DNA of 43,323 nucleotides, taken from a virus. Shown here piece by piece: positions 1,031 to 43,322 of this stretch. The stretch spans positions 1 to 43,323 of the IMG/VR virus record IMGVR_UViG_3300027851_000053. One strand, given 5' to 3'. Numbering within the stretch: the first letter of the stretch is position 1; the number at the start of each line of letters is the position of its first letter. A program made the position numbers and the translations under genes. The notes beneath the pieces were generated by a model that had not been told where the DNA came from, did not search any database, and saw nothing but the letters and a program-made list of their open reading frames with translations.

Positions 1031-1054
1031 AAAAAAAGCCCTCTATTGAGGGCT
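1031..1054 (-). terminator. Intrinsic terminator of the 1312..1067 moron
   Basis: A minus-strand hairpin AGCCCTC-AATA-GAGGGCT (7 bp) followed by seven U. It sits between the small gene ending at 1067 and the structural gene starting at 1017, with no recognisable promoter after it. Confidence 0.85.
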
Positions 1055-1444: not shown

Positions 1445-1990
1445 TCATTTGGGCGGTTCGGGTAACGGCATCCAGTGTGTCACACTCTCAAGCTCCATGA
1501 AATCCGATATGATACCAAGCGGGTGATTTAAGATAGTATCGAAATCCCAAAATTTACCATTCTTAAAGGCAATGCCACCAATAACGCGATGCGTTTCCTC
1601 GTCTTTACCAATCCCATAGGCAATAACAAATGTGCTATCGCTTGGGAGTGAATCTTTTACGCTAATCCAATTGTTCGCGCCTACCTCTGTTCCCATAAAT
1701 TTCTCAAATATGGTTTTGCATTTCAGGAATCTGATCTCAAAATCTGCAAGGATTTCATCCTTAAAGTCTTCCCACTCGCTTTCTTGAGGTATGGCAACAA
1801 AGTAAAGTAGTTTTAAATTACAATTTGGTCGGGTCATTTCGATTGTTGTAAATTTATATCCATAGCTAACATGGCTGTAATTAAAAATCTCTTGGTCGAT
1901 TCTATCTCTGAATATCAACCCGTCTCTATCACCGCCATAGTGCTTGACTTCTTCATTTACGCAAAATTCATAATCATTTTTAAAAAACAT
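1445..1990 (-). CDS. DUF551-containing protein (moron)
   Basis: A 181-residue protein whose C-terminal third (WISVKDSLPSD ... GKFWDF ... VTHWMPLPEPPK) has the hallmark pattern of DUF551, a small domain common in phage accessory proteins. The N-terminal ~110 residues are unfamiliar and rich in aromatic and acidic residues. The gene lies between tape measure and the next moron; its stop at 1445 is 3 bases from the next promoter box. It has a structured leader of the moron type (2023-2080) but an extended -10 promoter without the shared box. Function unknown; DUF551 proteins are not required for virion structure in known phages. Confidence 0.75.
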   Translation of the reverse strand: MFFKNDYEFCVNEEVKHYGGDRDGLIFRDRIDQEIFNYSHVSYGYKFTTIEMTRPNCNLKLLYFVAIPQESEWEDFKDEILADFEIRFLKCKTIFEKFMGTEVGANNWISVKDSLPSDSTFVIAYGIGKDEETHRVIGGIAFKNGKFWDFDTILNHPLGIISDFMELESVTHWMPLPEPPK

Positions 1991-2022: not shown

Positions 2023-2093
2023 ATGCGGAAAGATTAGACTAAGGCGATGCTAATCATTTCGGGAGCTATCCTATCCGCACACTAATCATACCA
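2023..2093 (-). promoter_or_regulatory. Extended -10 promoter and structured leader of the DUF551 gene
   Basis: Minus strand: extended -10 TGG-TATGAT (2093-2085) directly after the tape-measure stop. The predicted transcript begins with GUGCGGA (2080-2074), which pairs with UCCGCAU (2029-2023). Inside are GGA-UAGC-UCC, the linker CGAAA, and a 6-bp GAUUAG/CUAAUC stem. This is the same three-way junction as the other moron leaders but with different stem sequences. Confidence 0.65.
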
Positions 2094-4863: not shown

Positions 4864-5304
4864 TTACGCAATCTCCGTCAATGATGTTGGGTCAACTTCA
4901 AATACTGACTGGCTACCCTGTAAAAGCTTGGTAGCGCTTACACCTGAGTGTTGAGTGTAGAAACCACTAAATGAAGCAGTCTTACCAACAGACGGCAACG
5001 TCAATTGAAAATCAACCGCAACGATTTCTTTATTTTTAAGGAAGTTTGCAGCGCAGTTTTCAAGGATTGCTAATGATGGCGAGTTCGCTTCTAGGTTTAA
5101 GCCGAAAGTTTGCGCGTTAAACACAAAACCACCGCTTAAATTACCATCCGCACCTGCTACAGTTTGCGCAAGTGTGATGTCACCTAAGTTAAAAATATTG
5201 TCAGCCTGAAATCCAGTGAGCTGAACGTATGAATCGTAAATCCCCTCACAACGAAACAGTAGGACACAGTTCGCAGCGGTTAAGGTCTTTTTGTTAATAG
5301 CCAT
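4864..5304 (-). CDS. Tail tube protein (DUF3277-like)
   Basis: A 146-residue, mostly beta protein directly after the sheath gene, as in phages whose sheath is DUF3383 and tube DUF3277. The pattern fits: MAINKKTLTAANCVLLFRCEG at the start, then an IFNLGDITLAQTVAGADGNLSGG loop and a strand-rich C-terminus ending DPTSLTEIA. It forms the hexameric rings of the inner tube. The gap to the sheath gene is 12 bases and the next gene starts 1 base after its stop, so these genes are co-transcribed. Confidence 0.85.
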   Translation of the reverse strand: MAINKKTLTAANCVLLFRCEGIYDSYVQLTGFQADNIFNLGDITLAQTVAGADGNLSGGFVFNAQTFGLNLEANSPSLAILENCAANFLKNKEIVAVDFQLTLPSVGKTASFSGFYTQHSGVSATKLLQGSQSVFEVDPTSLTEIA

Positions 5305-7759: not shown

Positions 7760-7784
7760 AAAAAAGCCCTCTTGGTTGAGGGCT
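7760..7784 (-). terminator. Intrinsic terminator of the 8123..7800 moron, overlapping the next RBS
   Basis: Minus-strand hairpin AGCCCTC-AACCAA-GAGGGCT, then TTTTT and the ATG at 7759. The 3' arm GAGGG is spaced 7 bases from that ATG, so one sequence is both terminator arm and Shine-Dalgarno. Confidence 0.85.
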
Positions 7785-7799
7785 AGTTTAGCATTAAAA

Positions 7800-8123
7800 C
7801 TATGCTGTCTTATTATTCCATTTTGCGTAATACTGATCCTTTAAATACAACTCCATGCTATCCTGACCTATCAATCTGTGAAACTCAGCAGCCATGTTGT
7901 GAGCCAATAGATTTCCAGATCCCTTTTCATAAACAATGCCAAGCTCACCATTTAGCTTAAATCTAAACTTTTCATTTTGAATCTCTATATCGAAAACATC
8001 AGCACCCAAGTCAACCAAGTGATTTTTAAAATCATCCCATTGGCTCCCACATAGTGATAGGCTTCTATTCAGGTATTGTCGATTGCTTCCATAGCGTGCT
8101 TTTAATATTTCCCATTCATTCAT
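7800..8123 (-). CDS. Hypothetical protein, moron
   Basis: A 107-residue protein I do not recognise: MNEWEILKARYGSNRQYLNRSL, a central GADVFDIEIQNEKFRFKLNGELG beta stretch and a C-terminal helix (AAEFHRLIGQDSMELYLK). The ATG at 8123 is used; AGG of TGAGG lies 10-11 bases upstream, while the longer frame would start at a TTG. No membrane segment or signal peptide. It forms a complete unit: box-type promoter and structured leader (8158-8256) upstream, terminator (7760-7784) downstream, inside the tail-neck gene cluster. That is classic moron organisation. Function unknown. Confidence 0.7.
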   Translation of the reverse strand: MNEWEILKARYGSNRQYLNRSLSLCGSQWDDFKNHLVDLGADVFDIEIQNEKFRFKLNGELGIVYEKGSGNLLAHNMAAEFHRLIGQDSMELYLKDQYYAKWNNKTA

Positions 8124-8157
8124 AATAACCAACCTCAGTTACAGCCTAAAATATGGC

Positions 8158-8256
8158 GTGCCAGTCGGTAGGCTTTCCCGATGTTCGATAGCTAATCTAG
8201 GCACTTGCTCATAATACTAATATTGCTCTTAAAAAGATAATTAGTATTTCTTATAT
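8158..8256 (-). promoter_or_regulatory. Moron promoter with structured 5' leader
   Basis: Minus strand: box ATATAAGAAATACTAATTAT (8256-8237), exactly 20 bases, then TATTAT (8216-8211). The predicted transcript begins at GUGCC (8204-8200), which pairs with GGCAC (8162-8158). Inside are a GAU-UAGCU-AUC hairpin, a GAA linker, and UCGG/CCGA. Compared with the other copies, the P1, P2 and P3 stems have changed on both sides. Confidence 0.75.
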
Positions 8257-42216: not shown

Positions 42217-42789
42217 TTAGCAGTTAAAGGATAAAATTGATATTATCAGTAAAATAATGATGAAGGAGATAAACCCAATCTTCGCAAATTTGTCATAATT
42301 ACTACTATCGGATAGGGCTTCACTTTGTTTTTCACCTGCCATAACAAATGATCCGCGCGAATAAAGTGATCCTTCTTTCTTATACCCATTTAATCTAAGA
42401 TAATTTCTCAAGTCCTCTTTGAATTGATATTGAAGCTCATAATCAATCTTGCTATATATCTCACGGATAATCCCACCCTGACTCTTTTGCTCCAATTTTT
42501 TCTTATTATCAATATGAATATACCCATCTTCAATGCGGATAAGTTTTAATTCCTCATTAGATAATTTTCTTGTTAATACAGCACAAGCAAAGGGATCTAA
42601 ACTAAAACTACCAAACTCAATTATCTGCCTTTCAACTTGGAATTGTAGCTCCTCAATATTTTCACTTAGTAGTTTGCTTGAAGCAAGCAGTCTCGCTTCT
42701 TTTGTTCTCTCTTGTTCCTTATCGAACTCGATTTTATCTATAGCGACTTTTGCTAACTTTTGTTTGTTTTCTTCGCTTAAATTAAACAT
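42217..42789 (-). CDS. Hypothetical tail-anchored membrane protein, moron
   Basis: A 190-residue protein. ATG 42789 is chosen (AAAGGTG, 7-base spacing); the frame is open to 42813. Residues 1-65 are a charged helical region (IDKIEFDKEQERTKEARLLASSKLLSENI), followed by a mixed domain, and a single C-terminal TM near 172-188 (FISFIIILLIISILSF). Its own moron promoter/leader (42822-42919) and terminator surround it. Likely acts at the inner membrane; unknown family. Confidence 0.75.
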   Translation of the reverse strand: MFNLSEENKQKLAKVAIDKIEFDKEQERTKEARLLASSKLLSENIEELQFQVERQIIEFGSFSLDPFACAVLTRKLSNEELKLIRIEDGYIHIDNKKKLEQKSQGGIIREIYSKIDYELQYQFKEDLRNYLRLNGYKKEGSLYSRGSFVMAGEKQSEALSDSSNYDKFAKIGFISFIIILLIISILSFNC

Positions 42790-42810
42790 AACATTGCACC
42801 TTTGTTTGCA

Positions 42811-42919
42811 CATAATAAGAGTGTGGCTTCACGCTGTGCTACGCTTTTCAGGAGCTACCCTGGCCACAAAACAATAATAACAATAGTTTTTTTAAAAAGA
42901 TAATCAGTATTTCTTATAT
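42811..42919 (-). promoter_or_regulatory. 109-bp repeat copy 2: moron promoter and structured leader
   Basis: Minus strand: box ATATAAGAAATACTGATTAT (42919-42900), 20 bases, TATTAT (42879-42874), predicted start near 42867; leader stem UGUGGC (42868-42863) / GCCACA (42827-42822); inside GGG-UAGC-UCC, U-GAAAA, and a small GCGU/GCGU stem. It drives the gene at 42789..42217. It is an exact copy of 1-109. Confidence 0.8.
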
Positions 42920-42986: not shown

Positions 42987-43322
42987 CTACGCCATACTTG
43001 TACCAAGATTGTTCAGGCTTGCCTCAACTCCACGCATTGCATCGGAAGTAATACCCGACACGCTCGAAGCTGTTGTATATATATTTAAGTCGCCCATCTT
43101 CACATCAACGGAACGGCTTTGCATATCAGATTGCAAGCCTTTGCTGTTATAAAGCTTTCTTGGTGTAGCGCTTTGCTGAACCATGCCTTGCGCTTGTGCT
43201 GCGCCTTGTTGGATAGCTCTCTGAATCTCAGCAGTGCTACCATGGGATGCCATGTTTATGCCATCGCCATCATATTGACCTCTACCGCTAGTATTTTTGA
43301 TTGATGCCCATCGAGCAGCAAG
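42987..43322 (-). CDS. Partial tape-measure-like protein (second allele), cut by window end
   Basis: A 111-residue C-terminal fragment, open to the window end. The last ~65 residues (QQGAAQAQGMVQQSATPRKL onward) nearly equal those of the tape measure at 2096..4243, including DVKMGDLNIYTTASSVSG. The part before differs completely (AARWASIKNTSGRGQYDGDG), so a different upstream module is fused to the same tail. It is probably from a related phage or prophage joined through the 109-bp repeat. Confidence 0.75.
   Translation of the reverse strand, partial: LAARWASIKNTSGRGQYDGDGINMASHGSTAEIQRAIQQGAAQAQGMVQQSATPRKLYNSKGLQSDMQSRSVDVKMGDLNIYTTASSVSGITSDAMRGVEASLNNLGTSMA

Follow-up and report, generated by a model that had tools for sequence, protein, structure and literature searches.

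The flavivirus xrRNA is a three-way junction in which the loop of the third hairpin pairs with a strand just downstream, after which another hairpin follows. In riboswitches that hide the Shine-Dalgarno (SD) region in a pseudoknot, such as preQ1-II, the loop of a hairpin base-pairs with the SD region beside a conserved junction. The int-alpA RNA (Rfam RF02996) has a consensus that ends with auaAgGG opposite CCuUua. The window studied here, a 43,323-nucleotide stretch of viral DNA (IMG/VR record IMGVR_UViG_3300027851_000053), is related to Acinetobacter Obolenskvirus (52% identity in the tape measure). Its minus strand carries four leaders, named c1 (1343-1392), c2 (2022-2081), c3 (8157-8207) and c4 (42820-42870), and a second, identical copy of c4 (10-60), all of them where the original prediction had placed them. 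The leaders share with int-alpA RNA the same junction of stems P1, P2 and P3 and its near-invariant bases UA, GAA and CU, with CA in place of UA in c4. In c1 to c4, as in the Rfam consensus, the P3 loop (L3) is complementary to a strand (S1) just after P1, and canonical int-alpA members also show the full layout of L3, S1, SD and a further hairpin, P4. The window copies differ in being more AT-rich and in preceding accessory genes among tail genes. The resemblance to flavivirus xrRNA is limited to topology, namely a junction with an L3-to-downstream pseudoknot; the leaders have no sequence kinship with it and no Rfam match to it, head bacterial mRNAs, and offer the loop a second partner at the SD. 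Similar to the preQ1-II type, the leaders would pair a hairpin loop with the SD region by a conserved junction, but they lack an Rfam match to such riboswitches, their downstream genes share no pathway, and two alternative partner strands are present.

Assignment of the leaders to a family relies on the Rfam model and on two covariance models. The c3 leader aligns with all of RF02996 (model positions 1-71 of 71) at 30.7 bits, under the gathering cut-off of 35.8, and this is the single relevant Rfam match at low threshold; c1, c2 and c4 have no Rfam match. Since the leaders are below the cut-off or unmatched, they are classed as divergent relatives of int-alpA RNA and not as members by the Rfam rule. 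The earlier statement that no named family fits is nevertheless overturned by the c3 match and by sister-phage copies that exceed the cut-off (L236 at 12141 and at 5223, 44.7 bits each; L007 at 4145, 42.0 bits). Model R1 was built on the junction only, from 15 bacterial and viral sequences with none from the window, and its best three matches in the 43-kb window are c3 (29.9 bits, E=2.3e-6), c1 (14.5 bits, E=0.07) and c2 (8.7 bits, E=3.6). Model R2 was built from divergent members with c3 and c1 (which scores 32.0 bits), and its next-best matches in 91 kb are c2 (20.4 bits, E=0.003) and c4 with its repeat (13.0 bits, E=0.37). The c4 leader is the weakest member by score, and its membership rests mainly on P2 (GGGUAGCUCC-GAAA), the architecture, and a promoter element common with c1 and c3. 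BLASTN with the c4 leader gave no match in phage records, and its sole match in plasmids is AT-rich and due to chance.

Searching other genomes with a covariance model had been proposed as a check, and relatives are indeed found in phages and gammaproteobacterial genomes. RF02996 scores above its cut-off in 38 of 369 sampled gammaproteobacterial genomes (∼1 in 10), and the genomes found by R2 and by RF02996 in this set are nearly identical; the L216 match is probably false. True int-alpA RNAs were gathered by pattern search, with eight source genomes confirmed by the Rfam model. For the pattern CCTAGN{8,16}CGAAAAGCGGG, a crude filter on P3 kept 53 of 151 matches, and inspection by eye accepted ∼23 as true; many of the matches are due to chance. 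The family is present in phages of Acinetobacter, Vibrio, Klebsiella, Salmonella, Edwardsiella, Pantoea, Aeromonas, Psychrobacter, and Pseudomonas, and in the cultured Obolenskvirus phages AbP2 and Brutus an HNH endonuclease gene is among the genes preceded by leaders of this kind. In satellites and islands the leader lies between an integrase gene and a hypothetical gene, the latter followed by a gene for AlpA or another HTH protein; outside the window, the upstream protein is an integrase in 29 of 56 cases and the second downstream protein is AlpA in 14 of 56. The window copies sit among tail and accessory genes, not between integrase and alpA.

The c3 leader consists of P1 (GUGCC/GGCAC), P2 (GAU-UAGCU-AUC), a GAA linker, and P3 (UCGG/CCGA) with the loop GAAAGCCUA. 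S1 (UAGGCU, 8143-8148) is the complement of the c3 loop sequence AGCCUA, and the P4 hairpin UAAC...GUUA (8126-8141) encloses the SD GAGG (8133-8136), followed by the AUG (8121-8123) of an ORF at 7800-8123. In c1, with P1 UGUGGC/GCCACA, the downstream segment 1317-1337 contains S1 (UAAUG, 1333-1337) and P4 (UUAAU-GAGG-AUUAA, 1317-1330), with the AUG at 1310-1312; the 5' half of P4, UUAAUGA, is a second complement of the c1 loop UCAUUAA. The c2 leader lies shortly after the end of the tape-measure gene and has P1 UGCGGA/UCCGCA, an S1 (ACUAAGGC, 2009-2016) that forms 8 bp with its P3 loop GCCUUAGU, and P4 (AAUAUA-GGCG-UAUAUU, in 1991-2016) with a second match to the loop, AGGCG (1997-2001), before the AUG (1988-1990). 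In c4, P1 is UGUGGC/GCCACA and P2 is GGG-UAGC-UCC; the downstream segment 42795-42812 holds S1 (UGUGC, 42808-42812), P4 (UGCA-AACAAAGG-UGCA) and a second match, GUGC (42796-42799), and the probable AUG is at 42787-42789. All of these features are on the minus strand. The original prediction that the leaders fold alike is confirmed: all form the P1/P2/P3 three-way junction, and the covariance models group all of them in one family. RNAfold on single sequences recovers the junction in c1, c3, and c4 and folds c2 differently.

Compensatory change in the junction is extensive among the relatives. In an alignment of 83 distinct sequences, which was fitted to the structure and hence leans towards it, every one of the 17 pairs has changed on both sides (301 cells vs 78 when shuffled), and 92.6% of cells are paired vs 68.0% when shuffled and at most 44% when the partner is slid by one column. 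Conservation is 95-100% at the junction bases UA and GAA and at the U of CU. The compensatory changes first noticed in four copies thus extend to a larger alignment at a level far above chance, and the claim that a selected RNA heads the transcripts of accessory genes (morons) is strongly supported. Self-complementary P2 loops are frequent (AGCU, GAUC, GGCC, CGCG; for example UAGCU, UGAUC, CGGCC), which could permit kissing dimers; the common P2 loop GACG is not self-complementary.

Outside the junction, L3 is complementary both to S1 and to the SD region. Between L3 and the stretch after P1, the mean longest Watson-Crick run is 5.64 vs 4.08 ± 0.11 for permuted partners (75 clusters), and when this stretch is split, S1 and the SD region each co-vary with L3. 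The duplex energy with permuted partners is -4.15 ± 0.21 for L3-S1 against -6.84 observed (z = -12.6) and -5.97 ± 0.20 for L3-SD against -7.83 observed (z = -9.2), z values that kinship can inflate even after 80% clustering. Four controls (P2 hairpin with S1, P2 hairpin with SD, L3 with the ORF start, L3 with the upstream sequence) display no excess pairing. Many L3 loops resemble CCUU, and the L3-SD match therefore includes a generic anti-SD component, which the permutation null removes on average. At least 5 bp with both S1 and SD are present in 33 of 66 clusters. In c1 to c4, where loop boundaries were set by eye, L3-S1 pairing is 5-8 bp; pairing to the SD is limited to 3-4 bp in c3, c4, and the AbP2 and Brutus copies, and some copies may have a weak L3-SD pairing or none.

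A held-out set of annotated phages consists of 14 copies with 10 distinct loops that are mostly not of the anti-SD type (UCGUCA, CGUAGA, UCGCAGA, and UCGUGA among them). With loop boundaries and window borders set by eye, L3 forms 5.9 bp with S1 vs 3.3 ± 0.4 and 4.2 bp with SD vs 3.27 ± 0.26, and none of 2000 permutations is as high. Some RNAs carry the same partner strand twice, as with GUGAGAG (L227), CAAGGUGCG (L226), UACGA (L224), and AAGAGGG (L095), and a generic anti-SD effect cannot explain the doubling; CUACG, CACGA, and UGCGAG likewise each occur twice in one RNA. Between c1 and its close homologue in L237, L3 and S1 have changed on both sides, from CAUUA/UAAUG to CAUUG/CAAUG. The complementarity of L3 to both S1 and the SD region, with co-variation at each, appears to be new. 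The literature searched, whose coverage did not extend to the original description of the family, contains nothing on L3-SD pairing, P4, a role at accessory genes, or leader function. The S1 pseudoknot may already be drawn in that description, a possibility hinted at by the Rfam model, whose end coincides exactly with S1.

The translation signals sit at a nearly fixed place behind the junction. The start codon lies ∼33 nt after P1 (mode 33-35 nt), with the limitation that the large set relies on an SD-aware choice of start codon, which affects the spacing and the SD windows and not the permutation contrast. Annotated starts in named phages, placed by annotators unaware of the RNA, are mostly 28-37 nt past P1, including those of Salmonella phage BIS08P22 and of Klebsiella, Edwardsiella, Pantoea, Vibrio, Aeromonas, and Psychrobacter phages. 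The SD is usually within the loop of P4, whose stem measures 3.94 bp vs 3.23 ± 0.10, as in CAAU-GAGG-AUUG of AbP2 and Brutus. In L007, L010, and L014, different genes follow the c3 leader type, the start codon marking the border, and no Pfam or PHROG family is common to the 66 proteins encoded first downstream. Because of the unrelated proteins and the border at the start codon, the leader is regarded as a portable, gene-independent module. Autoregulation by one type of protein is rejected since the 66 proteins are unrelated, and a role as a defence-gene leader was rejected, with one weak PADLOC match among the 66. A DUF551 gene follows the leader both in the Acinetobacter phage (c2; window 1445-1990) and in E. 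coli prophages (L282 1591-1806). The chimeric leaders L237 4649-4698 and L238 2254-2303 combine a P1 5' arm of the type at L236 12141 with a c1-type remainder. They lie where the tape-measure gene ends, a site occupied by different accessory genes in other phages; such genes may be shuffled by recombination within leaders.

On this evidence, drawn from ∼100 relatives, it is reasonably probable that the leaders are int-alpA-type cis-acting 5' leaders that control the translation start of the following accessory gene by means of a switch. L3 would pair with either S1 or the SD, never with both. Based on the order of transcription, the nascent transcript would make S1 first, forming an L3-S1 pseudoknot that leaves the SD usable (ON), and a later move of L3 to the SD would block the translation start (OFF). 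The mean pairing energy is slightly stronger for the SD than for S1 (-7.8 vs -6.8 kcal/mol), which fits a metastable first state and is no proof of it. Given the position of L3 on the conserved junction, the balance could be set by action of a ligand, a protein, or the ribosome at that site, or by folding kinetics alone. A true sensor, in which a putative ligand or a phage or host protein at the invariant junction picks the S1 decoy or the SD, is a tentative and rather doubtful extension, and the 66 unrelated downstream proteins give no pathway hint to a ligand. If it held, phages, satellites, and islands would share a single portable switch, used with unrelated accessory genes, by which infection, induction, or the state of the cell is reported. 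Translational control by the leaders would give an orphan RNA family a concrete, testable function and suggests one portable module common to unrelated phage accessory genes, a point relevant to how these genes keep being expressed once they have moved to another genome.

The leader could instead be a static insulator, which we consider unlikely though the best placed of the alternatives: the L3-S1 pseudoknot and P4 would form a compact 5' end with the SD open in a loop and no switching, so that inserted genes are reliably translated and the L3-SD match is a by-product of an SD-like S1. Gene-independent use, the module boundary at the start codon, and the SD carried in the P4 loop are consistent with an insulator, and S1 is SD-like in many copies. 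However, the co-variation of L3 with the SD persists where L3 is not an anti-SD (UCGUC/GACGA, CGUAG/CUACG, UCGUG/CACGA), which argues against an insulator.

Promoter positions bear on a role for the junction in protecting the transcript. Clear -10 boxes end 5-7 nt upstream of P1 in c2 (UAUGAU, 2085-2090, minus strand), c3, c4, and several named phages, a spacing that would put the transcript start at the P1 5' arm or a few bases from it. A junction at the first transcribed base might shield the RNA from RppH and RNase E or, as flavivirus xrRNAs of this topology do, from 5'-3' nucleases, and the junction with its L3-to-downstream pseudoknot has the layout of an xrRNA. Such protection has no need of the L3-SD match, P4, or the fixed distance to the start codon, and leaves the L3-SD co-variation unexplained; it is improbable. 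The upstream element AAATACTRATTATCTTTTTAA of c3 (8229-8249, minus strand), possibly an activator or UP site, recurs at 82-102, 42892-42912, and, with two mismatches, 1414-1434, thus at c1, c3, and c4 and not at c2. Clear -10 boxes are confined to AT-rich phages. A family-wide AA at -10/-9 was rejected as a -10 box as P1 is often 9-15 nt past an upstream stop codon, and the AA may reflect stop codons instead. In satellites, P1 is often only 9-15 nt past the integrase stop, where a terminating ribosome could reach P1, and the leader could be coupled to translation of the integrase.

Rfam types the family as 'Gene; sRNA', and the exposed CU-rich loop would suit a trans-acting small RNA that uses L3 as an anti-SD on other messages. 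This is even less probable than protection of the 5' end, as the coding start ∼33 nt past P1 in nearly all copies is too close for an independent RNA and L3 co-varies with its own downstream strands; the evidence points to a cis leader. An antitermination RNA like HK022 put, also a phage leader near a promoter, that helps polymerase past the terminators after accessory genes is highly improbable: an intrinsic terminator does follow the c1 gene (1037-1054, minus strand), yet put has two hairpins and the leaders a single junction, constraint falls on translation signals with no terminator room between leader and gene, no evidence for action on polymerase was obtained, and no Rfam antitermination family matches at E<=5. 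Among the three functions initially suggested, translation control is thus favored by the L3-S1 and L3-SD co-variation, antitermination is unsupported, and 5'-end protection keeps a small probability. A terminator-like sequence also follows the c3 gene (near 7760-7785).

The ends of the window are related to each other and to the tape-measure region. Positions 1-108 equal 42811-42919 in sequence with different flanks, and 42987-43253 repeats the tape-measure C-terminus (2096-2400) in diverged form. Probably the contig passes through the repeated promoter and leader, and it may join two variants.
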